From Sphaerolaimus hirsutus (lineage: Eukaryota; Nematoda; Chromadorea; Monhysterida; Sphaerolaimidae), in contig OZ038452.1 of assembly GCA_964036195.1 (NCBI GenBank), positions 5,636,704 through 5,700,703 on the forward strand: 64,000 nt of DNA, read 5' to 3'. A program made the position numbers and the translations under genes. Shown here in pieces: positions 7,173 to 60,424 of this stretch. The first letter of the stretch is position 1; each line of letters starts with the position of its first letter. The notes under the pieces are model-generated. The model did not search any database. It was not told the DNA's origin and worked only from the letters and a program-made list of their open reading frames with translations.

Positions 7173-7194
7173 TTGAACGTGCATGTTTACCAGG

Positions 7195-11524: not shown

Positions 11525-11765
11525 TTAGTTTCTGAGTAGTTCTGCTTGCCATTTTATTTCTAATATTCTGCTGTGGGTCAATTAGCTATTTATTATTTAT
11601 AGGTTTTGCGTGCACGCCTCGACATTGAGGTAGTCTCTAGGTAGTCTCTGGGGCAAACTTTTAATTGTTTGCATTATCATATTTCTTTCGCCATCATTAT
11701 TAGTTTTTCAGTTATCGCCCGCTTATATTCATTAATTCATAGTCACTTATCGTAGCCAACCCGCT

Positions 11766-12080: not shown

Positions 12081-13331
12081 TGTCACCTAACACTTCAATA
12101 TTGAAGTTTTGTTTGTGCTCAAATGTTTTCAAGTGCCCGAAACTTTTCGAGGGGCCGATTTCGCCGCCTTTCAAGTGGTACAAAATGTTAGAAATATTCC
12201 CAGTTTACCAATCATTTGAAGCTCAGCTATTCATTTCTCATGGCATTTAGAACTTTCCTTGTCACAGAATGCGGAAATTTCAAATTGACAAAAAATTGTC
12301 ACCTGACAAACTGTGAAATTGGTACCTGATCTAAAATTAATAGATAGAAAGCGGTCGCGTAAATGCATTATTCTCATACATAAATAACTATTCTGGGTAG
12401 ACCAATTCTCCACGCTTCTAACATTTGCCAAATGTTAGCGTTATTTATAGCCCGTATCAATCACGCATAAGTGCCTCAGCGTCGGTTTGGGTGGATATAA
12501 ATCCCCCTCCCACCAAAATGTCGATTGAAGTGTATTACTTTACTGTAAAGTGCATACCGTATTTCCTCGAAATACCCCCCCTCGAAACCTTGAAGAATTG
12601 TATATCATTTTCCCCAGAAATACTACCTAATCAGGTGAAAAAAACATCTTTGATGTCTTGTAGAGTAAAAATTGGAGAAATACTGACTTTTATGTCTTAT
12701 GTGAGAAAAAATACCCGTTTTCCCTGGAAAATGTTATTTACCCACTTTTACGCAGTGTAAAAGTAAAACGTTTTTTAAAACAATACTTTTAAAAAGTCTT
12801 AACTTTACAATTTCCTTACCTACGCTGAGCAAAAACAAAATACATTACGTTTACGTTAATTCTGAAAAAGGTCAGTACAGTACCTAGTGGTACTTTCAAC
12901 AATACTGGTAAAGTGTTGATGTGACGGAAGGGAAGGTAGGAAGGGAACCACATTTTTTTAGTTCATTAAAGTTTTTTAAGACTAAACCCTCAGGGGTCAA
13001 TATAGCGATCGGACGGTTTGCTTATAGCAGAGCCTGTAGAATTTGCAGAGTTTATTCCGGAGCGCGTATTTACCGGTCGACCTAAGTTAGGTCCGGTGCC
13101 GCTACCCGTAAAATGTCTAATGTCATTGACGCGGCCCTGTGCCATTACGCATGTAAACCCATCACGCATGTAGAACCGGCACGCATTCAACTATACCCGG
13201 CATGCTGAAAATATTTATGCAATAAAACACATGACTTAGGGATTTTAAAGGTGAAAATCTATAAAAAGTATGAAAGTTAGTGACTTTGGGTGAAAATTAG
13301 GGTAACATTGCTCAAAAGCGCTCCAGATAGC

Positions 13332-15004: not shown

Positions 15005-15430
15005 CAGCTCGACGTAAAATTCCAGCGTAAAATTCCATCGCAAAATTGATTACATGAAAGTGGATGATGATACAGTTCTGCAATTTTTCATGAACAATAT
15101 GTTTATCAATACCTTCATTGTGTCCCAGAGTCATCGTCCACGGTCACTGCTATTTGATTGTGAAAATTCAAAAATTTCGATTTTACGTTGAAATTTGAAA
15201 TTTCAAAAGCGTAGAATTGATTTTTCTTCAGCTGGCGTAAAATTGCAGCGTAAAATCGAAAGTTTTGAATTTTCAGAATCAAATAGAAGTGACCGTGGAC
15301 AATGACCCTTGGTCACAATGAAGGTAATTATAAACATATTGTCCATGAAAAAATGCAGACCTGTGTCATCATCCACTTTCATGTGATAAATTTTGCGATG
15401 GAATTTTACGCTGGAATTTTACGTCGAGCT
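15005..15430. repeat. Foldback repeat with gctcgacgtaaaattccagc arms
   Basis: The left arm around 15007-15130 (agctcgacgtaaaattccag, gtggatgatgatacag, catgaacaatatg, ccttcattgtg) is mirrored by the right arm around 15300-15432 (cacaatgaagg, catattgtccatg, catcatccac, ctggaattttacgtcgagct). A central spacer lies between. It is a palindromic element with no coding potential. Confidence 0.65.
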
Positions 15431-25900: not shown

Positions 25901-28900
25901 ATGAAAAACCTGTGACAAATTTTTCCCTTTCTTTTCAAAAGTTGCATGCAGTATGTATTGTTAGCTAGCTGCAAGTGTAAAGTTACAATTATTGATAAGA
26001 ATGGTTTGCATTTTCAGTAGAAGGACTACTGGAGTGTGCTTGGCACATTTGTAAAATGTCATGCAAAGTGTCAATTGTCATGACAAATGTAAAGTAAAGT
26101 ATCAATTGTCATGCAAAATGTCAAGTGTCAGGTAAAATTTCAAGCACAGTGGCAATTGTCATGACAAATGTCATGCAAAGTGTAAATTGTGTATCGAAAT
26201 CTTGTGTTTTTGTATCCATAGTATGTTTTATATCCAAATCTTATGTTTTATATCCAAATCTTATGTTTTTGTATCCAAATCTTATGTTTTATATCCAAAT
26301 CTTATGTTTTTGTATCCAAATGTTCACATAAGATTTGGAGTCAACAACAACATAATTTGGATACAAAACATAAGATTTTGAAATAAAACATGAGATTTGA
26401 ACACAATTTGCTTGACAATTGATACTTAAATGTTTACATGTCATGACAATTTACACTTTACTATACATTTTTCATGACAATTGACACTCTGCATGACATT
26501 TTACATGACATTTGACACTTTACAATGCTTGGGACTGCCCCCAGATCCATGAATAAACAGGTAGAGACTCAAGCAATGAGACAAAATTTTACAAAAAATA
26601 TGAATTTTTATACAATTTTACAAAAATACGAATTTTTATACAATTTTACAAAATTTTTACATAAATTCAAATTTTTATACAATTTTTATTTTTATTCTTA
26701 AATTTTCCATTTTATTTTATTTTATTTTATTCTTGAATATTCCATTTTATTTTTATTTTATTTTTATTTTTTTCTGAGATTTTGCCAACCCTGCTCCTGT
26801 CACAGCAAAAAATGCGTGTGTGATGCGTCGGGAAGCGGGCTGGATGCGCGTGAAGCGGCGCGCTTCCACACGCTTCCCAAGCTTCAGCACGCTTCAGCAC
26901 GCTTCACCAAGAATCCTGAAATTTGTGGTGAAGTGTCTTCCACACGCTTCACCTAGCTTCACCTAGCTTCACCAACGCTTCACACGCTTCCAAAAATGTG
27001 GAAGACACTTCACGCTGCTTGGCGCTTCCACACGCTTCACGCACATATACATTTGCGTGCCAGCACCATATTAAAAAGCGTGAAGACTCTTCACGACACT
27101 TCATCGCGCATCCAAACACCTATTTTTTGCTGTGTGTGTTAAGAACCCGCTCTATAAATAGTTCGGCCGATATAGCAAAATCATATGCCGTTGGTGGATT
27201 TACAGCATAGCGACAAATAAAAGGTGAAATTACATATTCAGTCTCAACAAATTACAAATACATAAGAACAATTAGATTGGCCCCTATATTGACTTGAGTT
27301 GACAGCTGCTGTTTCAATTGTCGTTATGCTTTGAAATCAGCTTTGAAGGCACTCGAGTTCACCGGAATAAAAACTGCGTCAACTTCTAATATGGAAATCA
27401 AATGTGATTCATTCTGGTAGACTATAAGGTCTTTAAAACATAAAATTTATCAATTTCCGAAAAAAATGAGGATGTGAATAGAACCACATTAGTAATTTGG
27501 GTCCGACCGCCACTGTAATGCAGCGGTCATGGCGCGCACGCGCTATCATGATGCGGGTTCGATTCCCGCCGATGGCAGTTCATTTTTTGCACTCTTTTCT
27601 AAATATATTCTCGCGCTTTTTCCGCCAGAATTTCTCGACTCCATCGATTTCACATTCCTATTCTACAGTAATAGCTGCCGTGGAACGATGCATAGTGGCC
27701 GGGACGGGAACATTGAAGCCGAAAAAGCCATTCAGTGCCACATTGAGACTGCTTATAATCACCACGGGATTGGCTTTTTCCGTCATTTTGTGGGTGGGTT
27801 AATTTTGATGGGTTTAAAAAAAAATAAAAAATGCCCAAAATTGTCTATTCGTGATTGCTGTAAATATACTCGGCGGACAGCAAAGTATGTGCAGAACCCT
27901 ACCGTAATTTAATGAATACAATCTTGTGATAAATTTCGTAAATACATGTTCCATAGTAAAAAAAGAACGAAATATTATCATGAAAAACTGTACAATATTT
28001 GGTTAATTATTCAGATGGGTTACGGTAGGTTTCCATACTAAGTGTGATGTCTGTCGACTACCGTATTTCCTCGATTTACCCCCCGGGGGGTTTATTTTTT
28101 CAGAGTGAAAATTTTGAGAGAAAAACGTGAAAAATGCAACAATAACCACCATTTATAAGTTTTTACAGCCTTACATAAGGATGTAGATGGTATAAACGAT
28201 GTTCTAACGTAACAAAGTGTTTTGAATGTCTGTCATAGTGCCCATTTTGAGGGGGGTATTTCAAGGGGGGGGGGGGTGTTTCGAGGAAAAACGGTATACT
28301 GATTTTTCAATTTTCAGGGCTCGACGCTCGTAGAGTTGCAGGTATTGGAAAATCCCCTGTGCGCTATCGACAATATGGGTCGATTTCAGTTGATCCAGCG
28401 TGAAAACATGAGAGCGAGTTTTTTTTATCGGACAGTTTTCGCATTTTGGATACGCACGATTGCGACGACAATTGCGCCATTCGCGATACTCGTGCGTTTA
28501 TGTTTTATTTTTATTCATTACCGTATTTCCTCGAAATACCCTGACCCTCTACTAAATGCCCCCTCAAATTTGTTTCTGCACTCTGAAAAATTAACCCCCC
28601 CCCCACCTCGAAATACCCCCACCCGAAATGAGTGTTAAGGAAAGTGCAATGTAAATAAATACAGCGCCATTCCCTTCTCCTTAGGCGCCGTTAGCATTGA
28701 AAAAAACAACCGATTTTGAGAAAATAAACACCTTCCCGGACAAGTTCACCACCCATTTTTTTATTTCACTTCGAATGCAATATATCCGTCCATGGGGGTG
28801 TTATAAAGCCGAAACTTTGTATATATAAAGTTGTAAGACCCCTCTACTCCCCAACAATGGGGGAGGTGCGGTGACCCACTACAGGGTGGGTCGCCGCACC

Positions 28901-31900
28901 TCCCCCCATTGTTGGGGAGTAAGGGGGTCTTACAACTTTATTTATGCAAAGTTTCAGCCTTGTAACACCCCCATGGACGGACATATTGCGTTAGAAGTGA
29001 AATAAAAAAATGGGTGGTGAACTTGTCCGGGAAGGTGTTTATAATTAAATATTATCTCAGAAAATCTCTCAAGAAAATAATATAATTAAATCTCTTGGGT
29101 TATTTTGGAAAATATAATTAAATCTCTGAGAAAATCTCTCGCAGTTCAAAAAATCTCATAAAATCTCTCAACTTAAAGTGTGATTTAATCGATATTTCAA
29201 TGTGTTTGCACCATTGAGAGTAGTTGTTAAGCACATTTTGTGTTGTTTAACCTTTTCATTCATATATTCATATGATAACAGCATATTGTCTACTGGTGGC
29301 ACACTTTGTACTACCATGTATTTAGTATCTGAATAATGAACAAAAATATGGTTTAGGCACATTTTTCCTCAAAGTAGAATACCTACATTACTTTCACGTG
29401 TGATGATCCGCACAGAATTTATCAGATGACTTCTTCACCAAAATTTCACGATATTTCCAAAGCATGCTGTCAACTCTTTAGTTGTTAGAACCGAGTGCAT
29501 AAGTTTACCCATTGCACAAGTAGCAACATCCAGTGCCAATGTAGACCCGGTGCTTAGGTACAGCCCTGTACTTGAGCACTGGGTCTTCATGGGACTGTAG
29601 GGGTTTAGTATGACACAACAACAAAAACAAGGTATCCATGCTAAAATCTGTGTTCTTCAGTATCCAAATCATTCAAATACACATTGTGGATACACATATC
29701 AAATACCCGGAGAGGGAGTTATTCAAGATGGGGGACTTACTTGAGGGGGGATTTATTTTTTCCTTATCTGGCAAACAGGGGGAGTTATTCGAGGGGGAGG
29801 ACTTTTTCAAGGATATACAGTACTTGAGTACTAAGTAAATGCATCTAAATTTCCTCTGAAAAAGTACTAGTACTCTCTTTAATGTATACTTCTTGAAAGT
29901 ACTTGAGTACAGAAAAAGGGGAGGAAAAACTACAAATATGGGGAAAATAGCCAAAAAATTGGTATATATAAGCAAGCATATACCGTATTTCCTCGAAATA
30001 CCCCCAGAGGGTTTATTTTTTAAGAGTGGACATTTTGAGGGGGGTATTTCGAGGGGGGCTTATTCGAGGGGGGTATTATTTTGCCGGAACTTTTCGTGAA
30101 CAATGGTAGTAGAGAATGGGTTTTTACGTACCCATAACTAGTAATAAACGTGACTAAATGGCATATATTAGGACATATAAACGTATACTCTGGTTACTTT
30201 ATGCCGTACATTTTTCCCGAGGAAACACTCGTACATCGTAAATTTTTGCCACTGTCCAACTCGTTCCACTGTGAAATACAGATAAAATATAATCTGGAAT
30301 ATTCGATCGATCAAATTGATATTGTGTGATGCGCGGCTTCGATGCGTTCTCGGAACGGAATATTTCCTGATTCTAAAGACCACTTTCTAAACGTTTCGCC
30401 GCACGGTGAAAAAACCTGCGATAAGTTCCGCTGAAGATAAATAGGAATATTTCTGGCTCCGGAAACGCTACATATTTACTTGAAAATAGCAGGGACGGCC
30501 GGAATACCGACAAATTAATGCTTTTCTTACTTTTTTTTGTGAAAGGTCGGTCCTTCAAGTTTTCAATTTGACTTCGATATTTGAAGTTGATAAAAAAGGT
30601 ACATAAATATTTGCGGTGGTAGAGTATCATGTTCGCCGAGTATACATTGCTACACATCCTAGTCTATGTGTAGTTATGATGCAAATTGGCCGCATAGAGT
30701 ACATCATGTACATTACATACATGGTGTACATCATTACAGACGGGGGTATTTTGAGGGGGGGGGGTTATTTTTTCCCCAGCTCAAAAACACCTGGGGGTTA
30801 ATTCAAGGGGGGTATTTAGAGGAAATACGGTAGTTAAAAATAGATGAAAATTGGTAAAAAGCACATGAACTAGTGGTTTTGAAGGTGAAAATTGGCAAAT
30901 ATAGAGATATTTTCTTGAGAGATTTTCTTAATCAGGAGAAAATATAATTAAATCTCTCTGGAAAATCATGAAAAAAATATAAATCTCAGAAAATCTTATA
31001 TTTTCTGAGATTTTCTGAGATTTTTAAAATATAAATCTCCCAGAGATTTTTTCAATGCTAGGCGCCGTGTAAAACGTCCCAGACCTTGTAAAATGCTGTG
31101 TAAATGTAATGGAAACTATCAAATGTCATGTAAAATGTGATGCATAATCTCAAATATTATTTTATTTTTTACCATTTGTTTGGCATTTTCAAGGGAACTT
31201 CACGTTACTTTTTCGTGACATGTGACACTTTACAGAACATTTTACAGGCTTTGAAATGGTCCCTGGCCCGACGCCCTTTCCAAATGGTGCCATAGGGCCC
31301 ACGTACACACAAGTAGTTGACATCACAAATTCGTGTCAACTGAGTGTCAACTGCAAATCACAACCCCACACAGATAGTCGCCCAAACGGTTCTGTGGTTC
31401 CGCACGAAAAGGGCGTCGTCGGGCGTGCGCTCGCTCATGCTCATAGCCAGGAAACAAAGGGCTGAGAGGGCCGTGCCCGCCGAGACGCTCGCCGCTAGAC
31501 GAATGCTCATTTGTGAGGTTTTTGGGAGGCTTTTGGGGTTTTAAAAGTGATTTTTGTGTACTCGGCGGACGTCACGCTTAGTATGGACAGCTACCGTAAC
31601 CCGTCTGAATAGTGTACCAAAATTATGCAGTTTTTCATCAAAATATTCCGTTTTTATGATGGAATATTTAATTTTGTAATTTATCACAAGATTTTATTAA
31701 ATAATGGTAGCATGCGGTCCGCCGAGTATAGTGAATTCTGGTCAATAATCAATGGGTCTTAACGTTTTGTGGTCTTTTAAGCCGTTGCCGCATTTGTAAA
31801 TTTGAATAGTTTTTCCACAACCGAGAGATTCATGTGAAATTTTTAATTGCAAATATGTCTGCATATTTCAAGAAAAAAATCAATTTTTAGTTCTCAATCC

Positions 31901-42999: not shown

Positions 43000-44040
43000 T
43001 TGCAAACTGCTTCAAAGCCAAGTTCGGCACCCACTTTCTGACCGCCGGGTGGACACTATTAGATGCTATATATCAAGCTGTGTGGGGGATCAATACAACA
43101 TTTTGGTGGATGAACCCAACATCCCTGGCTATTATTTATGGGGAGGGTGCAGCCGGCAACCCACCCGAGTATGAGCCACTGTATACCTGGAACTTTTTGT
43201 GATTTTGGCTGTCTAGGCCAGGCCCTCAGTCTCAATTTTCAGTTCTAAAGGCCAAATTTTGCTCCTGTGATGACATTTTGGGGGCGAGATTCATTAAGTT
43301 ATGTTTTAATTTTATAATTGTTCCCCAGAAGTCAATGCATGCCAGGTTTACAAGTGTTTATAAAGTACGTGGCTAACTCCACTCAGTATGTGGCCAACTC
43401 AAAATCATCCCTCATAGCTGTGTTGGCCAACTTTTTAAGAAATTGGGTCAGTGCCAGAAAGTGGGTGCCAAACTTGGCTTGGGAGCAGTTTTTTATAAAT
43501 GCATAGACAATTAGGTAACCAAAATGATTGTGTTCATCAGTTTCATCAATTAATTTGGACCCTTTTTTGCTCCATTCATTACTTTATTTACTATCTATTT
43601 AGTTATTTTATCTTTATCTTTATTTACTATTTATTTACTTATCTACTTTATCATTACAATGTGGACGTGGTATGAGAAGCTCGGTATATTTGAACATCGG
43701 CTGTCCATTTATTTATCCGAGTCACCGTGTTTCTGGATAAATTTTTTCAATTAAGCATACATTTTACAGAAAATCAAATTAAGTCGCATCATCCTTTGTC
43801 ACTGGGGCGGGTTTCCGGAGCCTGAAATTGAAGCAATAAAAATGATGAAAATGAACGTAAAGTTATACTGATAGTGCTGAACGTCGCGCAAAGAACGTTA
43901 CCATACTTTGATGAATGAAGTATCATGCAAAATAGTGCGCCAAATATTTGCACACACAACGAAAGCAACGTAAATTGTCAAGAAAAAATATTTGTATTTT
44001 TTGGACAGTTTTGACATATTTTTGACAGTAGTTCCCACTG
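43000..44040. other. Intergenic spacer between convergent PAN and zinc-finger genes
   Basis: No gene recognised. The + strand gene ends at 42976 and the − strand gene ends at 44056, so the two are convergent with about 1.08 kb between stops. A tttattt-rich stretch (43580-43630 and 43705-43715) gives AATAAA on the minus strand and may hold the zinc-finger gene's polyadenylation signal. Confidence 0.4.
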
Positions 44041-44055
44041 TTCATTCAGCAAAGC

Positions 44056-47000
44056 TCACTTGATAAAATGCTGGCTGGCCGCGTGCGCTTTTCTCTGCGA
44101 CTCATCATCGAACAATCTCATGCAATAGGTGCACACGGCGGCGGCGGGCGACTGGTGGGCGGCGCGCACGTGCCGCTGCAGCTCGCTGGGGCCACTCCCG
44201 CACCCTGGAAAATGCCATGTAAAATGTAAAATGTCATGCAATGTCGAAACTTGAAGTCGTTTGACATGACTTTTGACACTTCCCGTTGCATTTGCCATTT
44301 CCCAGGTGCCAATCCCAGACCATGTAAAATGTCAAATGTCATGTAAAGTGTTAAAAGTCATACAAAATGCGCAGGAAATTGGTAAACGTACGTTTGCCAT
44401 TTTGCAGGGCATTTTACATGACGTTAGACACTTTGCATGACATTTCACATTTTACAGGGTTCGGGACTGCCTCCAGGGCATTTTGCATGACTTTACACAC
44501 TTTGCGTGACAGTTGTCATTGTGCATGGCATTTTACAGGGTGCGGGAGTGGCACCTGGCCGACTCGAAAGCGCAGTCGTTGCACGCATGCGCGGCCGACA
44601 CGGCCAGCGGGCACCGGCCCCTGGTGCTGTTCGAGCTGTCGCCGCAGCTGCTGCTCGCCGTCGCGTTGTCGCCGCCGTAGTGCGCCCGCAGAATGTGTCG
44701 GTCGAGCTGAGCGCGGTCACTTTGGAGATTTGTAAAAATATTCCGTTATTATAAATGAGGCGTCTACTTCTAAAAGTCGACAAGTCCAAAATATGAAAAT
44801 TTCGAGTTAGGCCCGGAAACGTCATCTGGGGCTACTTCCGCACATTTTTTAAAATCATTTTCCATAAAATTTTTGACCTCACATGCCCATATGGCAATGT
44901 GCCAAATTTGACATTTTTGGGGAAAAATGCAAAAATTTCGGGCAAGAAGTCGACAAGTCCATTCCTCCGCTTCCTTTTTTTATGGGAAAAAATAGCAAGA
45001 AATGTGATATGTCCACTATGGACAGCTACTTCTAAAAGTCGACAAGTGCATAAATTGCCCATAAGACAGCCTCGGCATCCCCGGGAACAAAAATGTTTGT
45101 TAGTGCAAGAAGTCGACAAGTCCAATTCCCTCCCAAAAACAGTTTTGCTCTGACCGAATGGAAATTTATGGACACCCAATTTTTCAGATAAAGGTTGAGA
45201 GTAGGGGCTGAAAATTTGACACTTTATTGTCAACATATGGAACTTAATGGAAAGCATGAGAGAGCCAAATTGGACACGCACCACGGGCCTGGAATTGGGT
45301 CCGAAACTTAAAATGCGATTTACTCAAAATCACATTTTGTGGACTTGTCGACTTTTAGAAGTAGAGGCCTCAATTAGCCCGACACATTTTCGCGCAGCCC
45401 GATACATAGGTATTTTAGTATATTTACGTTGCCGGGTTCAATGTGGCTATGCTCGAAATCTTGGCTGACGGCAGGGTCGTAGCCAGGATTTTCGAGCGGG
45501 GGCGGATCGTAAATATATGGAACCCAGCAGTCCCCCCTATAATTTGGCCCTGTGGAAACGCAATCACGTTAACGCCATTTATAGGCGCCAGCGCCACGTC
45601 AGTATTGTCTTTGGCGTTGGCGCCAACGTCCACTATATAGGTAATTGCCTATAAATAGTTAAATACATGGTACTGGGCTCGGTGTTGAATACATTTCTAA
45701 TGTTTTATTTATGACGCTGAAACATAAATAAATACATACCGTATGTCCTCGAAATAACCCCCTTTGAATTATTCCCCCCCCCCCCCGGAAATACGCCCAG
45801 GTTATTCGAGATGAGGAAAAAATACCCCCCGTCTACCAAAAACATGTCAACTCAATAAACGGCGTCACCTGCACGCGCTGAGCGAAGACGGCCGAGCAGT
45901 GAAGACACTTGAGCGTGCCCCTCTTCGCGTGCACGGCCATGTTGTGCGTGCGCAGCTCCCTCTCGCTGCCGTAGCTCCTGCCGCACTGCGCCACTATTCA
46001 CGGTCAAACTCAAATGGGTTTAAAGCATCTATGATTTATGAGTGTTCAAAGCATTTATGAGTGTTCAAAATTTCTAAGTTTTTTTAAAAACTAAGCGCGC
46101 AGGGTCCTCAGTCATTTTTCGTCAGTCACAACTCACAAACAAGTCACTTAACCAACTACAGCACTTACTTCCTCACTTAGCACTTAACCATCACTTCCGC
46201 ACTCTGACAAAGTGGCACCTGGTCGCAGAGCAGCCTGTCAGCGGGGTTGCCCTCGTCGGGGTGGTGGAAGCGCATGTGCGACAGCCAGTCGTCCAGCCGC
46301 GCCAACTGCACGCTGCCCCGGGGGCACCGGTCGCAGCGCAGCACCGACGCCGCGTGCATCCGCTGCTCGTGCCGCCGCACCTCCCAGCTGTGTGGTGCGC
46401 CGTTGTTGACTGTAGTGATGGAAAAAGCGCCAGGAGTTTGGCGCCAAGCGCCATGGCGCTTTTTATGGGTGTGGCGCCAAGCGGCAATGGCGCCACGGAA
46501 AATAGCGCCAAGCGCCAAATGCGCAATGGAGCTTTTCCCTTTGGCGTTTAGCGCCAGGCACCAGCGCCATGGCGCTTTTCCATCACTAGTTAAATGTATT
46601 TACTTTTACTCGAAAAATATATATACTCGAGTACTGGGTAAATACATTTATAAATACTTTTTAAAAGTACACGTACTCACATGTACGCGTACGTTTGAAA
46701 GTACATGTGTACATAAAAGGTATTTCAGAAATTTCAAATTGTAATTTTTTGTCGCTGAAATACTAAATCTTGACAAAATCATATCATTTCTATCATATCA
46801 TAAGTTTCGTAATTTTAACAACTATTTATGTTGCGGTGTGAAGTTCCAGTTTGGCACTCGGCACGTGTTCGGTCGAGAAGAGAGACACTTTTAACGCATT
46901 CTCGTGGCTACGGACACTGGATGCCAACTGGTTGCCCGTGTCGATTGAGATTTTAGTTGACGGGTCTCAGGCAAAATATCAAGTGCACATCAAGTGGCGA

Positions 47001-49172
47001 AAAGCAATTGATATTGGTATACGCGGCGGAAATCACACTTAGCATGGAAACCTACCGTAACCCATCTGAATACTGAACAAAAATTATACAGCTTTCATAA
47101 TATTTTGTTTCACGGTGGAATAATATTTTACGAAATTTATCACGAAGATTTTTTTCATTTAAGTTATGGTAGGATTCCGCATACTTTGCGGTCCGCCGAG
47201 TAGACAATAAAATATCTAAAGGGTTAGCCAACATACACCCAAAAACTCAACCAACTTGGACACAAAGCTCATGTGACAGTGCGCGCACGGGAATCGCTTC
47301 TGACCAGATTCCGAGTGCTTCGCTTTCACGTGTCGCCGCAAATGCTCAGCCAGGAGACAGTCCCAGACCCTGTAAAACGCCCTGTAAAATGTCAAATATC
47401 CTGCAAAATGGAAAACGTTTGCTTGCCATTTTACAGGGCATTTTCCATGACTTTTGACACTTTGCATGACATTTGACATTTTACATGGCATTTTACAGGG
47501 TCTGGGACTGGCACCAGGGTGAACTTTGCGCTGCAGCGGCCGCACTCGTGCTCCTTGATGCTGTAGTGGAACAGCTGGTGCCGCTGCAGCTGCGACACGC
47601 TCGGGAAGGTCTGCGTGCACGGTTTCGTGCCAAATTGTCAGCTGTTGACATTTGTCAATTGTCATGCGAAATGTCAAAAAGCTCGGTGTTAAAATCTTCT
47701 TTAAATTCAATTTGACATTTTGCACGACATTTGATAATTGACTTTACACTTTACATCGTGCGTACTGACACTTCCAGAATCTGCGACTGCCCACGGGGAG
47801 GATTTTCCGTGTACCTAAATACATTGCATAGTTCACGACTTACCTTTGAACACATGCCACAGGGGTGGGCGGGGCTGGACGTGGTCCGCTGGCGCTTGTG
47901 CACGCGGCGCACGTGGCCCCCCAGGTACCTGCGCCACAAACCACGGCAGGGGTAAGATAGGGGGGTTGAAGGGGTTGGAGGGGGGTAACCCCCCAAACCA
48001 CACAGCTATCTATCTATCCCGGAGGCAAATTTTTTGGCTACTACCCCCTGAACCCCCCCCCCCCAAATCACCTAACAATTTTTCAGGAACGGTGACATTT
48101 TTCCAGGATCAGGATTTTCATATTTTGGTATCGGGATCGTGGCCTCGGGACAGCTAAATACGGAAAATTATCGGGATCCCGTTTGAACCCTAACTGTAAC
48201 TACGTAGACTATTAATCGACTCAACGTGAATGGATGTCAGTCGTAGGGATGGCCGAAAAAGTTTTTTTTCAACGACAAGGTTTTTTTTAATAACCCCGTT
48301 TTTTCCAAAAAAGGTTTTTTTATAAAATGAAACCGTTTTTTTCTTCTTCAAAAGCTCCCAGTTATGGTCATGAGTCAACATATACAGGTAAATCAGACAG
48401 GTGACAGTACTTTGTGATGTTATATATAGCCATAGAATGGCTGTGGAGCCATGCGGTATCATTATAAGTGGTGATTTCTGTCAAAAATATCTGTTTTATG
48501 TCGAATTATTACAGATATCGCCTTTTGTCGAACATTCATGACTTTGACAAGTGAAGTTGGGTATTGAAACGTGCTTAAATAAGGATATAAGAGCAGGCTA
48601 ACACATTGGCAGTGGTGTTTCACACTGCACAAGTATGTGGGGGCACATTGGCTGTATATTATATACTACACTAGCACATCGTGGCTCATTATGACAAATA
48701 GCATAAACAAATGGAAGCTTTTACACTAAAAATGCTTCAAAAAAATGAAAACCACCACAAATGGTAAAATGCAGGTGAAATTGCGCGCTTGCGCGCAAAA
48801 AAATCACAAAATACCTAGTGCTTAGTACAAACAATTTAGGCCAAGGTTTAAAAAAAAACGGTTTCGATGGTCGGGTGTTTTTTTTAAATAAAACGTTTTT
48901 TATTTTAAAAAAACCTTTGAAAAACCATCCCTAGTCAGTCGTCAAGTATTCAATTCAATTTGACGGTGTCAAAATTGCATTGAAGTAGATTAATTCAGAA
49001 TAGTTATAAATTCTTATGATTAAAAACTTTTTTGACACACATTCAACCAAAACATTGAATTGACAAAACGCACGAAAATCACCCACCTTTTCTGGCTGAA
49101 AGTTTTGCCGCAAATGTCGCAGGTATGCGCGCAGTCGCCAGACGGTGTATTTGCATCATGTTCATTTGACAT
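44056..49172 (-). CDS. C2H2 zinc-finger protein, nine fingers, 8 exons, 309 aa
   Basis: Exons (minus strand): 49172-49087, 47928-47844, 47610-47515, 47350-47256, 46387-46219, 45985-45869, 44706-44555, 44185-44056. Phases close to 930 nt. The start ATG is at 49172 and the stop TGA at 44058-44056. Fingers begin CDICGKTF, CGMCSKTF, CGRCSAKF, CAHCHMSF, CDRC (irregular), CDQCGRSY, CLHCSAVF, CNDCAF and CTYCMRLF, each completed by an H-x3-4-H pair. It is probably a nuclear DNA- or RNA-binding protein; its target is unknown. All seven introns cut through a finger, and correct Cys-to-His spacing (12 residues) is restored only by the junctions listed, which supports the model. Intron 3 has no AG at the required junction (CCTG|G). 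Introns 3 and 7 are transposons from end to end, and intron 5 appears to be an older one. Confidence 0.9.
44190..44553. mobile_element. Introner forming zinc-finger gene intron 7 (compound)
   Basis: On the sense (minus) strand the element runs tgccactcccgcaccctgta ... cagggtgcgggagtggc. The sense-strand flanks are CCAGG and CCAGC. The intron (44554-44186) is the element plus one 5-bp flank, spliced GCCAG|GTGCC ... CCCCAG|C, and it joins finger 8 (CNDCAFESA + SELQRH) in frame with canonical GT-AG. A second family member (44307-44472) is nested inside; without it the host element is about 193 bp. Confidence 0.85.
44307..44472. mobile_element. Introner-family element nested in another copy
   Basis: Starts tgccaatcccagaccatgta and ends gggttcgggactgcct, bounded by CCAGG on both sides (44302-44306 and 44473-44477), a perfect 5-bp duplication. 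Removing it reconnects gccatttcccagg with gcattttgcatgac of the host copy. Confidence 0.8.
44756..45373. mobile_element. TTGAGGCGTC...AAGTCGACAAGTCC element, copy 2, in zinc-finger intron 6
   Basis: Left end atgaggcgtctacttctaaa and right end ttttagaagtagaggcctca are inverted. It is highly similar to 10884-11524 throughout, with shared phrases such as cccggaaacgtcatctggg and caagtccattcc. Some internal lengths differ. It has no conserved open frame between copies. Confidence 0.7.
45990..46217. mobile_element. Probable older introner forming zinc-finger gene intron 5
   Basis: The intron 46218-45986 begins (sense) CCAG|GTGCCACTTTGTCAG and ends GAATAGTGGCGCAG|T. TGCCACTTTGTCA and the reverse complement of the other end, GCCACTATTCAC, look like worn inverted repeats. 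The left flank is CCAGG; the right (GCAGT) is degenerate. Splicing is GT-AG and completes finger 6 as CDQ|CGRSY. Confidence 0.5.
46412..46592. mobile_element. GCGCC-palindrome element with TAGTGATGGAAAA ends
   Basis: Left end tagtgatggaaaaagcgcca and right end tggcgcttttccatcacta are inverted. Inside are gcgccaagcgccatggcgct and cgccacggaaaatagcgcca. It is the cleanest copy of this family in the window and lies in zinc-finger intron 4, 25 bp upstream of exon 5. It is CpG-rich and self-complementary at several scales. Confidence 0.75.
47017..47206. mobile_element. TATACTCGGCGGAC MITE in zinc-finger intron 4
   Basis: Begins tatacgcggcggaaatcaca and ends actttgcggtccgccgagta. The interior (catggaaacctaccgtaacc, gaaatttatcacgaag) matches the 190-bp family. 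Confidence 0.65.
47355..47513. mobile_element. Introner forming zinc-finger gene intron 3 (GT-TG junction)
   Basis: The sense strand begins tgccagtcccagaccctgta and ends cagggtctgggactgtct. The flanks are CCTGG on the sense strand at both ends (47518-47514 and 47354-47350). Intron 47514-47351 is the element (159 bp) plus 5 bp. Splicing ACC CTG|GTGCC ... CTCCTG|GCT GAG restores finger 3 as CGRCSAKFT-LAE-HLRRH with the standard 12-residue spacing, but the acceptor is TG. A canonical alternative (CCA|GTCCC with GCTGAG|CAT) keeps the same length and would give VP in place of AE. Confidence 0.85.
48244..48933. mobile_element. TAGGGATGGCC element with perfect 8-bp duplication, in zinc-finger intron 1
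   Basis: The ends tagggatggcc / ccatcccta are inverted. The flanks are GTCAGTCG on both sides (48236-48243 and 48934-48941). The interior has T-runs and A-runs that pair across the element plus gcacattggctgtatattat. It is a non-autonomous, hAT-like structure. A related element lies at 57420-58066. Confidence 0.8.
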
Positions 49173-49351
49173 TGCGCCGTGGCTTTTTTACGTTTGGAGA
49201 AAGTATTTTTTTTTAAACAAAAAAAAGCATATTCATATGAACACCGAAGTTCGGCTGCTATTCTAGCTGAATTTGTTTCGAGCTCGATTATGTGCAAGAA
49301 TAAACAGTTTATTACATTCAACTTGAACCAGTTTAACTGAAAAGAAACAGG

Positions 49352-50463
49352 TATACTCAGCAGACCGCATGTTATGAATTTTTCTGAAGGAAACACACCA
49401 TCATCTAGGGTTCAAACGTTATGACTTTTCGATATCGATATTCGATATTTTTTCAAAATTTTCGATATCGATATTCGATATTTTTTTCTGAAACTCGATA
49501 TTCGATATCGATACGATATGGAACCTCGATATTCGATATCGATACGATATGGAACCTCGATATCGATATTCGATATTCGATATTGAAAAATGGTCGATAT
49601 TGAAAAATGGTCGATATTCGATATTGAAAAATGGTCGATATTCGATATTTCGATATTTTCGATATTCGATATTGCGATATGCTTTTGGTATAGCAAGGCA
49701 TCTTTCAAGTGGCATATTGTATTTTCATTTGGTTGCACACATGTTTAATCATCTCTTTACTGAAATTTGAATGGTGCAAGTGATTTTAACAAGCTTTACA
49801 TCACTCAATGGTAGAAAATAGAAGAAAAACATGATGAATCAAAGTGTATCAGACAAATAATAATTGGTAGATATTACAGTTCATCCTAACCTAATTGCTT
49901 AAGGGCATGTTGCAAAAAAAAGTATATCAGCGTTTTCTGGCTTCAAATTTAGCACTCCAACAACAATGACATTATAAATACTGTACTTTTACTCATCAAA
50001 TACCATACTATAAGCACATCAGATCAACCATAAACATCTCAAAATGAAAATGAAAAGTAAATTTGGGGACACAATACAGGTTCGATATATCGAAAAAATG
50101 GTCGATATTCGATATTTTTTCAAAATTTTCGATATCGATATTCGATATTTTTTCAAAATTTTTGATATCGATATTCGATATTCGATATTAAAAAATGGTC
50201 GATATCCGATATTCGATACGATATATCGTTTGAACCCTAATCATGACGGCATCGTCAATAAGATGAAAATTGTTCCAGCAAAAAAGAAAAAACGTTTCAG
50301 GAAACACTTTCCTCGCTTCTACGCGAGTCCGCATGTTTCTTTTTAAAATATTTTTTATGAAACCCATTTTTATGAAATTTTATGAAAATAAGTACCCTGC
50401 GCACGCGTTATCGACTAAGACATAAGTTATTTTGGGCACATACTTTGCGGTCCGTCGAGTATA
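49352..50463. mobile_element. TATACTC MITE split by a GATATCGATATTCG element
   Basis: The outer ends tatactcagcagaccgcatg (49352) and actttgcggtccgtcgagta (50463) belong to the 16893-17154 family. The phrases gaaggaaacacaccatcat and tcatgacggcatcgtc are separated by an insert at 49405-50239. The MITE without the insert is about 275 bp, like the intact copy. Confidence 0.75.
49405..50239. mobile_element. gatatcgatattcg-rich element with TAGGGTTCAAACG ends
   Basis: The ends ctagggttcaaacg / cgtttgaaccct(a) are inverted. ATCAT lies on both sides (49400-49404 and 50240-50244). The left third (49430-49680) and right part (50083-50225) are dense in tcgatatt/aatatcga palindromes, which leave all frames open and give shadow proteins. 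It is inserted in a MITE copy. Confidence 0.75.
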
Positions 50464-50765
50464 AGGACACAAATATCACACAAAAACGACCGGCTATTGA
50501 CGCAAATAAAGTCACCACAACATCAATGATGCCCCCCTTACAACACACAAACACAACCATCCACGTAATTTACAGTATTTCCCCGAAATACCCCCACGTC
50601 TATGTGAGCTGGGGAAATAACACCCCCCTGCCTAGTTTCAGACAATTTGTGCACGCCATTCACAAATTACAGGCGTTTTACAGTTACTCATAAGTCACAA
50701 ACGCTACTCAAAAGCTAAACCCCCCGGGCTGTAATTGGAGGAAAAACGGTAAATACCCACTCAAC

Positions 50766-53700
50766 TCAATACCAAGCCAGCTGCCTAGAACTGGAATATC
50801 TGTGTCTGAGGTGGTTGCCCAGGCGACAAAGTGCTCCGGTGGCAGCGCCGACAGCCACGGCGGCAGTTGCGGATCCGGTGAGGGCGGCAACGGCCGCACC
50901 GGCGGCGACTGATTTCGCTACTGACGCCTTGGGGGGGGGGGGGTGTGGTGATTGCGTGAGTATTGCGGGTAGCGATGGATGCGCGCCAGAAAATTGGCGC
51001 CAGGTAGACGGCCACATGGCGCCATTAAAAGGCGCCAGCGCCATGGCGCCTATGCATCTATTGGCTCGAAAAATATTTGGTATTTAATATCGCTAGAATT
51101 TTTATCTACTGTTTTTCACTATAAATATATTTTACACAGGCGAAATTCTAGCAAATCCTGCGCCCAATATCGACACTGAAAATGTGTCAGAATGTCTCCG
51201 AAAGCCAAATCCACAACAGCTCCTATCAGTATAAGCACCTGGTAGCTGCACTTGGTGCCGTATCTGCACCAGCTGGCGAAATGCTCGCAATTTGTGAACA
51301 ACAAATGGTAGCCCTTTGTGCCAATCTGGCTGAGCGCCCTGCCGACGCATTCCTCAGAGAAAAGCGGCTTATAATGGCAATCTTTGACGTTGTTCACGCG
51401 ACACTCGCAGCCGCCCGCCACCAGACTCAGCTTGTCCACACGCACCTGAAAAATGAAAAGAGTTGAAAAGGAATTGGAAAAGTGATTTGCGGTCGTTCTG
51501 GCTACTTACTCACCCTGGCAGTCCCGCCCGCCACCTGTGGCTTGGAAACCGTTTGTTCAGTCTGTTTCTACCGTAATGTTAGTACTTTGCATTTGCGTTT
51601 AGAGGGGTCGGGTGGCGCAGATCAAAGGGCATGCATGCTACCAAACTATTGTTTATTTTTTGGATTTCGAAATTGTTATTTTTTTGAAGTTTAAAAAAAA
51701 AGAGTCACCTAAGCCACTTGAAGGCGTCGCTCTTGCCAGGGTGAGTAACTATAATTACATATTCTTTGCGGTGAAGCGTGGGGGAGTGGTAGCTGATGGG
51801 GGTTGGGATGGTTACACACAAACATACAGAAATTACAGAATACCTAGTGAATGAGTACTCAAATTTTAGCTGGCATATCTCTTTAAAAGGCGGCCTCGAC
51901 GCTGGCATATTTTTTCACCTCCATGCTCGACACTCAAGAAATTCTTTTATGGTTAAAAAGACGCCGGGTATCCCAACTTCACACCCATCCATCACCAACC
52001 ACAGAAAACCCTATAAAGTCGTAACTCGTAAAACAAACCTCGGCCAAAGCCTCCGTGGCGCTGCCAATGATGTCACTCAAACTGCACAGTGACACAGACT
52101 TGGACAGGTGCCAATGCAACGGCTGCCGCCCGCGTTTCAGCTTCGCGACAGCGCCGGTGCGCCTGTTCACGCGTGAATTAGTGCACGAAGGCGCGCTGCT
52201 CGGCCGGCTGTTTGGTTGTGAGTTTGAGCAAGTTGGCTCGGTGCCAGGGTCGTGCTGAAGGATTATGTCGTCTAGATCGACTGCGGCGCTGGTCGCTGTG
52301 GGGGCGGCATTTTTTTTCAAATACAGAATTTTTTGTAAGATTAAATTACAATAGGTTCACAGTTTAACTGTATCATTACAGGAATAAAAAATTTCATAGT
52401 CATAATAACTTTCAGGCGCACTAATGTGCGTTCTAAACAGACACCCCGTTTAAAAATAGCGCGACGTAACGAACCTTTTCCACATTCTTAATATTTTTAA
52501 ATACTTAAAACGGCAAGAATGCTTTGACAATTGTTTCTGCCAAACTAATTATCCAAAAACCACCCCAAATCGCAATGAAGAAACCAACATTCTGAAGCAT
52601 CAATGACATTACTTTGATCATCATCACACAAATTCAGCCAGCGCTTTTCATCCCGACCAGTGGATTTATTGAAAGCGAAAGATTTTTCGGGGCCGCCACT
52701 CAAATGGGCGACCAGAGCACCTTGCTCCCGTTGTACAAATATGGCCCAGTGCTGAAAGAGGCTGAGAGTAGGGATGGCCGGTGTTTTTTAGCCGTTTTTT
52801 TAAACAGGCATCGAAACCGTTTTTTTAAAAAAACGGCAGCCAAATTTTTTAGTACTAAGCACTAGGTATTTTGCAATTTTTTGCGCGCAATTTCACATGC
52901 CCATTACCATTGGTGGTTGTTTTCATGGTTTTGAGGCATTTTTAGTGTGAAACCTTCCATTTGTTCATGCTATTGTGTCATAATAAGCCGTGATATGTTT
53001 GTGTAGTATATAATATCCAGCCAATGTGCCCCCATATAGCTGTACAGTGTGATACATCACTGCCAATGTATTTGCCTGCTCTTATAACCTTATTTACGCA
53101 CTTTTCCACGCCCAACTTCACTTGGAAGTCAAGAACATTTGACAAAAGGCGATATACGTAAGAAGTCGACACAAAAAGGACGTGACGATGCGCTCTAAAC
53201 TTTCACAACCACCCCGAATATTGATACCGAAACTGGCATTTTCCGCTACGAAACGAAACCCGCTACAGCCCCCCCCCCCCCCGCCTGGATACGTCCTTGT
53301 GCACTATTGTAAATTCGGATGATATTTTACACTTCAACTTTACAGGATATGGTACCATCCCCAAGCTTGATCAATTGCCAACTGCATAGCATGGACAGCT
53401 GGTGCATGTCTACACTGCAAATTGCAGGTGCACGGCAAGTGTCACAGTATGCATTGATTTGTTGAAGACCATGTGGCAGTGGAAAAATGCATGTGCACAG
53501 CAGAAGCAACTGGTTGGTTTCAAAAGTGACAATAGATGCACGGAACATGTGGCAGCAGCTGGAGCGCGCTGGGTGCGTACCAGCTGGGCAGGCATGATGC
53601 AGCGCCATACGTGTCCATGGGTGCCATGCCCACTGCACGCATGCAAATGTCCACGAGATCAGATGTCCACAAGACCAGATGTCCAGCGGGTTTGGTGTCC

Positions 53701-53880
53701 AGGGGTCACTCACCAATCAAACGGCTCTCAAACACAAATCTATTCACAAGCTCTGTACAACCCAACCTTATACAGCCCGCCGCAGCGCCGTATCTCGATT
53801 AGGTCGCCGGGCAGCGCGCATTGGGCCAGTTCGCTGGCACAAAGCCACTTTGTGACCACCCCTTTGTGCGAGGCTGACAT
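50766..53880 (-). CDS. LRAT-domain (PLAAT/H-Rev107-like) acyltransferase, 5 exons, 287 aa
   Basis: Exons: 53880-53767, 52751-52628, 52295-52039, 51445-51239, 50927-50766. Phases close to 864 nt. The LRAT/NlpC-P60 core is complete: PGDLIEI (24-30), HWAIF with the first catalytic His at residue 39, VAHLSGG (second His, 54), RVNN, and the nucleophile in NCEHF (C218) followed by RYG. The C-terminal exon encodes an Ala/Val-rich hydrophobic segment (about 237-265), a likely membrane anchor as in PLAAT proteins. Family members are thiol acyltransferases/phospholipases acting on membrane lipids. Exon 3 adds a polar segment of about 60 residues rich in Ser, Pro and Asn that typical members lack. The exon 2/3 boundary has an alternative (52630 with 52288). 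The last acceptor is CAAG after a C-run, slightly weak. Confidence 0.9.
50985..51060. repeat. Short GCGCC-palindrome copy in LRAT gene intron 4
   Basis: gcgccagaaaattggcgcca ... ggcgccagcgccatggcgcc, a compact member of the GCGCC family located about 60 bp upstream (sense) of the last exon. Confidence 0.55.
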
Positions 53881-54295
53881 GCTTTGTTGTGGTTTTACTG
53901 TGTTTGTGGTTTCTGTGGGAAGGGGTGAGATGGTGGCTTCATTTGGGGAGATTTTTTGGCTACAGATAATTATCAGGTAAAAATGGCGTTGCGCACATGT
54001 ACTGGGAAATTCTTGTCCGTTCAAAAATATTGATAATTTTGGTTTTTGAAGAAAAACAAACTTAAAGAATATAATGTAAATTTGAAATGAAATCAATGCT
54101 TAGTTTGGAACTGGGTTTTGAACACAGCGATAGCGAAATCCAAATACGGACACATAATGCGTAAGTTACAAGTTACTCCGTAACTTTTGAACGAACAAAC
54201 AGTTTTTCTAGTGCAGAACGGCCCAATTTTGCTGAAATTGAATGAAGATTTCCATCAGAAGTTCACGTATTGGATACACAAAGAGACATAACGCA

Positions 54296-54301
54296 TTTAT
54301 T
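54296..54301 (-). terminator. Possible polyadenylation signal of the TXNDC15-like gene
   Basis: AATAAA on the minus strand, 170 nt past the stop codon. The motif is common in AT-rich DNA, so this is only suggestive. Confidence 0.3.
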
Positions 54302-54470
54302 AAAATCGATTAGAAAGAGAAATGAACCAAATAATAAATATGATAACAGCATTGCGATAGAAATACCCGTATGCAGGAGCTTCAATTGACAACAAATTCG
54401 ACCAATAAATTTTCTACTGCCACTACAAAAACAACTGTTGAAACCTAAATAAATATGTGCAATTCAATAT

Positions 54471-57400
54471 TCACCGGTGTCCATTAACATCACCACCGGG
54501 GTGCATTTCCTGATTAAGTCGGTCATCCTGATCGATATCCTCATCAGGGTCTGGGTCAATATTCACCGCTGCAGCTTCGTTGGCTTCGAGCCAAGCGCGT
54601 CTGCGTGCCAAAATGGTCATTAATATGGAGCGAGTGTTAAACTTGGAATGAAAAAAAAGGAACCAAACTACTTGAACGGTTTAAAAATAATGTTTGTTTT
54701 TAAAAAAAAATTTATTAATTCATAAAGCCAAAAAACCTGCCGACAAACTTGATGGACGCAAATGCCGCCCAAAAAGCGTTGGTCTGCGACAAAGCGTAAC
54801 ACATGGAGCCAATGAGCGCCAGCCAGGGGGCAGTCCCAGACCCTGTAAAATTCCCTGTAAAATGTCAAATGCCATGCAAAGTGTCAAAAGTTATGTGAAG
54901 TGACCAGAAAATGGCAAACGTGTTTGCCATTTCCCAGGGCACTTTACATGACTTTTGACACTTTGCAGGACATTTGACATTTTACTTGGAATTTTACAGG
55001 GTCTGGGACTGGCACCAGGCGGCCAGGAGCGTCCAATCGGCGTCGCCGGTGCCGTCGGAGTTGGCGCAGGGCAGCGCGCCGATCTCGACCATTTTGGACA
55101 TCAGATCCGCGTCGGACATGCTCGACGCATTTTGCATTATCGTGCCATTCACGTCCAATTCTGGGGCCAATTTCTCACGTGGACAAGTGACCAGGAAAGT
55201 GGTGAGTGGTGAAGCGTTTTCCAGCCGACAAGCGAGCTTGTAAGTGACTTATAAGTATTCAATTTTCATCTAAAGATTTACCTCTCATACTTATAAGTTT
55301 ACTTGGCATTTAAATACTTGTCCACATAACACTTTTCTTGCCACTTGTCCACTTGCGGAATAGGCACCTGGCTGTTCGAGGGGACAAAATTGTTGCAGTA
55401 ACGGGACGCGTCTGTCTCGTTCTAGGTCTGAGTGAATAGAGCTTTGCCATAACTCGAAACATTCTCGAATTGCCAACCCTACAGTTCTGAGGCCGTCTAG
55501 CACCTTGTATACTTCTGTGACTTTACACCTTGCACACTCAAAGCGTACTAACGTTTGATTAACACGTTTGATTTTCATGAATAAATGGAAAAAAATTGTT
55601 GCTGTTATAACTTTTAACGTTAAAATTTTCACGAGAAAAACTTTTTCATATTTTAACAAATATCACATGCCTAAATTCTAATTGGCACGCTTCCAACGTA
55701 AGACAAGTAAATAAGCGTGCAGAGCGTCATGTCATTGGAGATTAAAGTGAAATGTAAAGTGTAAAATACTATGTAAAATGTCATGTAGATTGTCATAAAA
55801 ATTTGTCAATTGTCAAAGAATGTCGAAAATCCACTAATAAAACTGTTTCCTTTCGATTTCAATCGACACTTAACATGACACTTGACACTTCACTCAACAC
55901 TTTACAGGGTGCGGGACCCCCCCCCCCCCACCCATTCCAACCGACCGGTCCACCTCTGCAAGAAGCGTCTGATGGACTTGTACGAGTAGTTGGCGCCGGC
56001 GTACCTAGCCACGGCTCGCTCGCGGTGCCACAGCAGGATGGTGGGCGTGCCGGCGATGCCGTAGCGGGAGTGCACCCTGCGCAGGTGCGACACGATCGGG
56101 ACACAAGTGTGTTTGGGCGACTATGCCCTTTTCGGACAACGGGATAGACTTTTCAGATCGGGATTGGGGTCTCGGGATTGTTTTTTTGGTGAGATTTCGC
56201 GATCGGGATTGGTGTCTCGGCATTGGCATCAGAACCGGAATCGGCATTTTTGGGGGATTGGGATTTTGGGATGGGGGTCGGGATTGTGGAAAAAGTTCTG
56301 ATTTTAAACGATTTACGTAATTTGTCACAAAAATGGTCTAGAAACACATCAGGATGCCATTAAAATGGCATACAGTGGACTTCAGGTAACTATTCAGGGG
56401 ACTTCACATTTATTAGTGCAAAAATGGCATTTAATAAGTTGGCAATTTTTTTTTGGCAAACCTGCTAAAAACGGAGGCGTCCACGGCTAGCACGTGCAGA
56501 TTTGGATACAGTCTGGGCAGCTGGTTGAGCGCGTGTGCCAACTGGCGGCTGTAGGCGCAGTGCAGCGCGTAGAACACAACCAGGGACGCGATTTAAATTG
56601 CCCCACACGGTTTTCGGGCAGCCCGATAATTCCGTGCTTGGAATGATACGTGCTTAGCAAAATTTTCGCTCAAAATCGCTAATTTTCATAAACTTTTATA
56701 GATCCTACATGCTTTTAGCTATTTTTCTCCCATTTCTTCCTCTTACACCTACAGATCCGGAAAATTTGGAAATTCCCAACCCTAGTAAATATGTGTTCAG
56801 TAGAGTTATGCGCTAGTCACACCGAGACTAGCTAGTCCTCTAAATCAATTCCGCACTAGTCTGAAAAAATCCAAGCACTTGTTTTTTTGCTTACCACTTC
56901 TGCATAACTTTCACTCGTCAAATGCGTAATTGGTCCCCGATTTCAATCTCAAACATTTCAATCACCATCACACCGAACCGTGCAAAGTATCATTCCACAC
57001 ACAACACAATTCAAAGCCACCCTCAAACCCACACAGGGCAATTCAAACCGCGGCACCAGGGCGCACCAATTGTAGTCGGGCAGGGCGGCGGCGGTGTCGT
57101 TGACGCGGCCGCGCGCCGCCGCGCTCGTGTAGTTGTCGGCGAGCTGCGAGAGCACGTGCAGCGCGTCCGCCCCGCTGCCCAGCACGTGCACCACCGGCGA
57201 CCAGCTAGAGTCGCGCCGCGCCGGCCCTGAGTTGCGTTGGCGGTTTGGTGTTGCATGATGGAGGTGATTGGGCCAGTTGTGGACCGACTAGAAGGCAGGG
57301 TTAAAATGGAATTCGGGATCCGGATTTCGGTATTTTTCAGTCATGATCCCGATCTGGAAACCTCAATTTCGATCCCGAAATCTAAAAATATCCCGATTAA

Positions 57401-59835: not shown

Positions 59836-60158
59836 TGTCTGCGGTTTGTGAAGTGGAACCGGTATTTATTTAGTTTGCGTGAAGTTTGAATTGAAAATAT
59901 TTATTTGGGATTTTTTCAGCGGATCGACTGTTCGTGATTATAAAAAATATTGCAAGAATGATCAGTCGAAATCAAGAATTCATTAGGTGACATTTCATAG
60001 CACAAATCTTTGTATGTGAAAACCTGTTTAGCACACAATTATGGACGATTATTTAGTTTTATGGCTGGAAATAAATAAAGCCTGGAATATACGCGAACTT
60101 GAAAGAATATATTAGGAAGAAATCGGGAATAGCGTAAGCGTAATGCCATAACACCAGG

Positions 60159-60290
60159 GAGCAGTCCCAGACCCTGTAAAATGGCACACACGTTTGCCAT
60201 TCGTCATGCCATTTCACATGACTTTAGACACTTTGCATGAAATTTGACATTTGCGCGACATTTCACATTTTACGGGGTATGGCATTGGCA
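60159..60290. mobile_element. Introner-family copy upstream of the TXNDC15-like gene
   Basis: Starts gagcagtcccagaccctgta and ends cggggtatggcattggca. The flanks are CCAGG (60154-60158) and CCAGA (60291-60295). At 132 bp it is short, and it lies outside coding sequence, about 320 bp upstream of the ATG of the minus-strand gene. Confidence 0.7.
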
Positions 60291-60424
60291 CCAGAACGCA
60301 TAAATATTATTGGTTTCATTTTGGGCGAAGAACAAAATTGCAAAATGAAAATAAAAAGGTATTCGAGTTGGAACTGTGCATAAATACTGAAACCGAGAAA
60401 GCCCACGGAGTGGAAAACAAAGCG

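Follow-up and report, generated by a model that had tools for sequence, protein, structure and literature searches.

Palindromic CWG-targeting transposons as probable sources of GT-AG and GT-TG introns in Sphaerolaimus hirsutus

A stretch of 64,000 nucleotides (nt) from the nematode Sphaerolaimus hirsutus (assembly GCA_964036195.1, contig OZ038452.1, positions 5,636,704 to 5,700,703; the window in the following) contains inverted-repeat elements that coincide with introns of a C2H2 zinc-finger gene and of a TXNDC15-like gene. That the elements made these introns, the intron gain by transposition proposed in an earlier note on this DNA, is well supported by empty sites in paralogs, by target site duplications (TSDs) together with terminal inverted repeats (TIRs), by 1544 copies of the element end in the genome and by the restoration of conserved proteins. 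On the sequence evidence, palindromic elements that duplicate CWG probably become introns: the copies at CAG would be removed as GT-AG introns and the copies at CTG as GT-TG introns, with a later conversion of the acceptor. Within this joint explanation, and with equal confidence, the elements are regarded as non-autonomous palindromic DNA transposons (miniature inverted-repeat transposable elements, MITEs), mostly about 160-190 nt long. The earlier note described four introns (44554-44186, 47514-47351, 55015-54824 and 57056-56581) as an inverted-repeat element plus a 5-bp flank, whose excision restores the codons. All four intervals are inverted-repeat elements with a short direct repeat, and removal of the element and one repeat leaves an open frame in each. 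The acceptor dinucleotide, undiscussed in that note, is TG in three of the four.

Element structure and target site

The 18-mer at the element end occurs 10 times in the window with up to three mismatches (0.01 expected). A genome-wide search for the end, as the earlier note had suggested, detected the exact 18-mer 1544 times in 348 Mb; the reversed control was found 0 times. Genome stretches fetched around such places carry L-numbers, and coordinates given after an L-number are local to the stretch. The first set, chosen by the exact left 18-mer with the right end left free, comprises 70 stretches with 73 of the 1544 places, all on one contig and within its first 10.3 Mb; the window was added to it. 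A second set of 57 stretches was selected with both ends fixed by a pattern. In the notation left TSD/right TSD, it consists of all 17 CAG/CTG copies, the first 20 of 51 CTG/CAG copies and 20 of 100 CTG/CTG copies (the next after those already sampled).

The first set yielded 90 pairings of a GT end with a second end; without some double pairings and duplicate loci, the number is 84. Identical trinucleotides were present on both sides in 57 of the 90: CAG in 30, CTG in 25, CAT and CGG in one each. The CAT repeat is exact at L014, and is also present at L022 if one extra base is allowed. Segmental duplicates occur among the copies, e.g. L079/L080 and L073/L087, so the genome-wide TSD counts are not all independent. 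L019 and L020 are closely alike duplicated loci about 200 kb apart, each with the same introner (transposon-derived intron).

The right-hand copy of the 57 exact repeats is followed by G 38 times, by A 11 times and by C 8 times. As G follows in only 38 of 57, the final G of CCWGG reflects a target preference. CCWGG, described earlier as a duplicated 5-bp unit, is therefore retained as the preferred insertion site, while the duplicated unit is the 3-bp CWG. The flanks at 44554 differ at the fifth base (left CCAG|G, right CCAG|C), which contradicts a 5-bp duplication. It follows that the element starts with G. It begins GTGCC, not TGCC preceded by a donor G from the duplication, and both bases of the GT donor belong to it.

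The 189-nt consensus of 104 selected copies agrees with its reverse complement at 182 positions. Apart from three loop positions, mismatches are confined to positions 2 and 4, where one end reads GTGC and the other GGGG. The right arm terminates in TTTTACAG-GGTCTGGGACTGCCCC-CWG. End identity in the consensus is partly a product of selection, because the left end was a selection criterion in the first set and both ends were in the second; the right end, unselected in the first set, was GGGG in 57 of the 90 pairings. Divergence of the 104 aligned copies from the consensus had a median of 8.3% and a mean of 10.6%. A symmetric ancestor with GGGG at both ends may have preceded the present element. 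The change of one end into GTGC would have supplied its own GT donor. The MITEs would insert at CCWGG-like sites and duplicate CWG, and the second TSD copy would serve as acceptor.

Empty sites and restored proteins

Two tandem Na/K-ATPase genes (L064 and L065) are 82-93% identical in matching stretches. They have their ordinary introns in common and differ in their introners. The L065 gene carries introners at DHL|VGGK (CTG/CTG) and at YEDL|GGLG (CTG/CAG), both sites being unbroken coding DNA in L064. An L064 introner at AYEQ|AESD (CAG/CAG) corresponds to an unbroken site in L065. Three insertions in both directions thus mark these introns as new. A later invasion of old introns by MITEs, which would not have made the introns, is hardly credible. 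It could draw on the element at 55164-55367, which sits in an apparently longer intron, and on those at 7194-7415 and 60158-60291, which lie outside recognised genes. Against it stand the uninterrupted coding sequences of the Na/K-ATPase paralogs and the coincidence of element borders with intron borders.

Introner junctions were found in eight protein families with database matches, as many similar copies of one element. A BCKDHA gene (L051) harbors four introners. Peptides of emptied sites aligned with PDB chains of Na/K-ATPase, BCKDHA, cyclin Y and CNOT9 without a gap at the junction; one BCKDHA alignment has one extra residue about four residues upstream of it. The peptide length equalled the profile length in the Pfam stretches of Oscp1 (twice), Rcd1, Sugar_tr and Peptidase_M18. 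The junction peptides for the Pfam and orientation comparisons were chosen by eye, without a blind test. In the first batch, seven of ten peptides matched Pfam at E<=0.01, four of them above the curated cut-off. The second batch gave two matches in ten, both below the cut-off, and the third gave three in ten, all above it. A weak innexin match of one junction peptide (E=3.5e-4) was below its cut-off. Together with Na/K-ATPase, cyclin Y and OSCP1, it is in keeping with an animal genome. The genes at L127, L120 and L124 are presumed to encode a mitochondrial phosphate carrier, a TTC30-type protein and DNPEP, respectively; L127 had no match in Pfam or PDB. Of 15 introns tested, 14 would place a stop codon in frame if retained; the remaining one, in CNOT9, would cause a frameshift.

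At the window junctions, the Thioredoxin profile match starts about three residues before the 57056 junction and spans it. The 47514 junction gave a weak zf-H2C2_2 match below its cut-off. The 44554 and 55015 junctions are backed by the open frame and by what are presumably zinc-finger and TXNDC15 patterns.

The predicted TG acceptor

The predicted intron end of CAG copies is AG. In CTG copies, sliding the border within the duplication yields the 3' ends CC, CT, TG or GG, never AG. Three CTG introns (L051 5112, L051 3012 and L065 4647) were scored with a splice finder that prefers a GT-AG split scoring up to 2 points below the best. No split up to 2 points off the best ended in AG; GT-TG was the sole GT option in two introns, and GT-TG or GT-GC in the third. 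CTG/CTG junctions with database support are located in CNOT9 (C1:10595875-10596052), Na/K-ATPase, OSCP1, a permease, a sugar transporter, an M18 peptidase and twice in BCKDHA, where one of the two copies is without one C at the right end. The CTG/CTG cases of the window comprise one in the zinc-finger gene and two in the TXNDC15-like gene.

Non-introner introns of Na/K-ATPase, BCKDHA, cyclin Y and OSCP1 were placeable as GT-AG in 14 of 17 scored cases. The finder placed no GT-AG in the other three (L065 2243, L064 3425, L051 4335), nor in the single TXNDC15-like intron scored. The non-introner BCKDHA intron at about 4335-3973 of L051, between ATL and ACP, has no near-optimal GT-AG border. The finder passed over four stretches where the reference gave no coverage. 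It misplaced the BCKDHA CAG introner, a reversed BCKDHA copy and the OSCP1 CTG introner, and these three were read by eye.

Exact-ended copies of 160-190 nt were counted genome-wide: 100 are CTG/CTG, 51 CTG/CAG, 17 CAG/CTG and 194 CAG/CAG. The acceptor side thus carries CTG in 117 of 362 copies, which do not have the AG end of a U2 GT-AG intron, and CAG in the other 245. With the left copy assumed to be the original target, the right copy turned into CAG in 51 of 151 copies with a CTG target, and into CTG in 17 of 211 with a CAG target (Fisher odds ratio 5.8, p=1.3e-9). A change in one direction on the acceptor side is expected under selection for an AG splice site in RNA. From sequence data, AG appears to be the preferred acceptor and TG apparently a tolerated one. 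Because AG is the better acceptor, CTG on this side would have turned into CAG over time, and CTG would persist on the exon side as a relic of the initial target.

The same asymmetry could also arise if CTG copies are not spliced at TG. Only CAG copies would then be working introns, and CTG copies would be recent damaging insertions, pseudogene alleles or introns that use a nearby AG and yield an altered protein. The excess of CTG-to-CAG over the reverse change fits this explanation, as does the somewhat lower number of left-CTG than left-CAG copies (151 vs 211, p=0.002). It is nevertheless unlikely. One hundred exact-ended CTG/CTG copies persist, CTG copies are found in CNOT9, in Na/K-ATPase and twice in one BCKDHA gene, and the median divergence is unlike that of brand-new insertions. 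In 20 of 28 right-CTG copies and 25 of 37 right-CAG copies, the last AG inside the element lies at a distance of 19 nt from the exon; its use as acceptor would keep these 19 nt in the message and shift the reading frame.

A codon model called 11 of 25 CTG/CTG copies of the first set sense-coding, a share that resembles the 14 of 28 CAG/CAG copies. The second set gave 9 of 20 for CTG/CTG, 8 of 20 for CTG/CAG and 5 of 17 for CAG/CTG. CTG/CTG copies are hence not excluded from coding exons. The model was partly trained on genes that it scores, and the counts are not independent for these training genes. At the strict level, 33 of 84 copies of the first set were sense; a further 11 received weaker calls (9 sense, 2 antisense).

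Precise somatic excision of DNA, like that of internal eliminated sequences in ciliates, would replace RNA splicing altogether. Precise removal leaves exactly one CWG, whichever W, and the site of a BCKDHA copy in reverse orientation would likewise be restored exactly by excision. This explanation is very improbable in view of the orientation of the copies. Of 19 gene-supported copies counted by hand, 18 have the GT end towards the donor (the four window cases are weaker and the peptides were picked by eye), and antisense peptides, also picked by eye, had a Pfam match in 0 of 10. The orientation bias and the acceptor-side position of the CAG conversion are unexpected for excision because DNA would be cut symmetrically. 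In addition, the assembly itself includes the elements.

Several observations weigh against the removal of the elements as GT-AG and GT-TG introns. The splicing is deduced from protein conservation. The codon model places 9 of 84 copies antisense and 31 of 84 in noncoding sequence. Two Pfam matches are not gapless, since lengths differ by one position: E1_dh at L051 3607 (50 residues on 51 positions) and the L053 permease (44 residues on 43 positions). The BCKDHA copy at L051 4539-4730 lies reversed within a conserved exon and has the border GG instead of GT. Its exact removal restores KGRQ|MPVHYG; use of a GT six nt inside (+7) would add Gly-Thr in frame. For human genes, TG acceptors are described solely as alternatives close to an AG, never alone (PMC2374985).

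Splicing at TG may be helped by the long hairpin together with the AG of the TIR, usually 19 nt upstream. This AG could act in step one of splicing and the TSD in step two. The 55015 copy is predicted to fold as a single long hairpin (-127 kcal/mol, z=-19.9). A bolder version, to which somewhat less than an even chance is given, holds that the family breaks the AG rule wholesale: the TIR AG would serve step one, the hairpin would bring donor and acceptor close together and any (A/T)G would serve step two, with a hundred or more constitutive GT-TG introns slowly becoming GT-AG. Through the combination of TIR AG, hairpin and an (A/T)G from palindromic CCWGG, insertion at CAG and at CTG sites alike could give rise to an intron.

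Comparison with described systems

Introners in the account of Gozashti et al. 2022 (PMC9860276) are transposon-derived introns with TSD and/or TIR and with splice sites split between element and TSD, as in S. hirsutus. The Chrysochromulina introner described there likewise provides the 5' splice site itself and co-opts the one at the 3' end. It has a 4-bp TSD and no TIR, whereas the present elements have a 3-bp CWG TSD, a complete palindrome and often a TG acceptor (PMC9860276). Among the animals and land plants surveyed in that account, introners were present in only two taxonomic groups (PMC9860276). As a class, the S. hirsutus elements are introners, set apart by a target of CWG, by a palindrome that is complete and by a predicted acceptor that is frequently TG; no priority is claimed for these features.

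A transposon source of the NuwaI kind, a group of PHIS (PIF/Harbinger-like) transposons, is suggested by the CWG TSDs and possibly by the GGG end. NuwaI transposons are described with a 5'-CWG-3' TSD (PMC4482050); 55 of the 57 exact 3-bp repeats in the 90 pairings are CAG or CTG. Their TIRs usually start with GGG (PMC4482050). Here the right end is GGGG in the 57 of 90 pairings mentioned above, and the left end is GTG, which was the selection criterion of the copies. NuwaI is reported only from animals in PMC4482050. PHIS transposons are mobilised by a DDE transposase together with a Myb/SANT protein, with matching TIRs. Unlike NuwaI, only short non-autonomous copies were seen here, with no transposase linked to them.

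Introner elements of Amoebophrya, as outlined in PMC7789003, are hairpin-forming introns with inverted repeats and direct repeats of 3-5 nt at the borders, many of them non-canonical. No family-specific inverted-repeat motif and broad splice motifs are given for them (PMC7789003), in contrast to the single family described here, whose donor is fixed as GT and whose predicted acceptor is (A/T)G. Most scored ordinary introns of S. hirsutus are GT-AG, which is a further difference from Amoebophrya (PMC7789003). The animal genome of Fritillaria also contains non-AG 3' ends (PMC13326754). There, AG/AC and AG/AT introns that have a YAY triplet make up the main non-canonical types (PMC13326754); the donors here are GT.

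TG 3' splice sites in human U2 introns were reportedly described by Szafranski et al. in 2007. The survey counts 36 genes with a TG site within 28 nt of an AG (PMC2374985). The AG is usually 19 nt away in the S. hirsutus elements. The authors suggested that AG is needed for the first splicing step and that TG is selectable in the second (PMC2374985). Human TG is never the sole 3' site in that description (PMC2374985), whereas here it is predicted as the only frame-preserving site in many introns.

Elements and genes of the window

The C2H2 zinc-finger gene extends approximately over 43770-47960 on the minus strand and is interrupted by two introners. Element 1 (44189-44554, minus strand; ends GTGCCACTCCCGC...GGAGTGGCCC) forms with its TSD CAG (44186-44188) the predicted GT-AG intron 44554-44186. 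A second introner (44306-44473, plus strand) is nested in it in opposite orientation, at a CAG site of element 1 and with the TSD CAG in its own orientation. The other introner of the gene (47354-47514, minus strand; TSD CTG, acceptor copy 47351-47353) is a predicted GT-TG intron, and its removal regains the spacing F-x5-L-x2-H.

The TXNDC15-like gene is located at 54471-57226 on the minus strand; the name TXNDC15 is assumed for it. Six exons were placed by eye (57226-57057, 56580-56462, 56076-55946, 55160-55016, 54823-54737 and 54600-54471), and the 5' end was not found among them. The protein matches Pfam Thioredoxin (E=2.9e-9); a comparison with a protein collection yielded 2423 candidates, of which none scored. 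The introner at 54827-55015 (minus strand) has the TSD CTG (54824-54826) and gives a predicted GT-TG intron. The element at 56584-57056 (minus strand; TSD CTG, 56581-56583) shares the end signature GTGCCGCGG.../...CGCGTCC with the family and has a different body; no end-to-end relative was found among roughly 345 kb of sequence compared. The predicted GT-TG intron 57056-56581 is situated at the start of the thioredoxin domain. A further element (55164-55367, minus strand; ends GTGCCTATTCCGC.../GGGCCAATTTC, TSD CAG) lies inside an apparently longer intron of this gene, and its right TSD (55161-55163) is the predicted acceptor preceding exon 4.

Two related elements were located where no surrounding gene was recognised. 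One is at 7194-7415 (plus strand; ends GTGCCAGTACCGC/GGGACAGTTCCGC, TSD CAG), the other at 60158-60291 with the GT end on the minus strand and, in that orientation, the TSD CTG. When all 64 trinucleotides were tried as candidate TSD across the window, CAG gave six matches and CTG four. A GT end faces a G end in seven of these ten; the other three are without this arrangement. AT-rich words outnumbered CAG and CTG in the scan (TTT 11, AAT 8, ATT 8) and were taken, uninspected, as low complexity.

Other sequences of the window include long near-perfect inverted repeats at 15006-15430 and 28724-29042 (91% and 93% complementary, respectively) and a tandem array of short period at 11746-12086, in which several frames give repeated short peptides. 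Open reading frames on the minus strand at 51122-53880 contain the motifs GDLIEI and NCEHF, and are presumably of the LRAT/HRASLS type. An open reading frame at 24817-25053 resembles, by eye, the transmembrane helices of rhodopsin-like receptors. A marginal tRNA match was obtained at 27509-27577 (29.3 bits vs a gathering score of 29).

Implications

The family would present the birth of introns with its intermediates still visible: a symmetric transposon, two base changes at one end that make the donor, the insertion and a later mending of the acceptor, with TG becoming AG. If spliced, the GT-TG introns would form a natural population of sole TG acceptors, which is absent from the human survey. 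They would then provide a direct system for studying how the spliceosome checks the 3' splice site, and the elements would link introners to a CWG-targeting PIF/Harbinger-like transposon.

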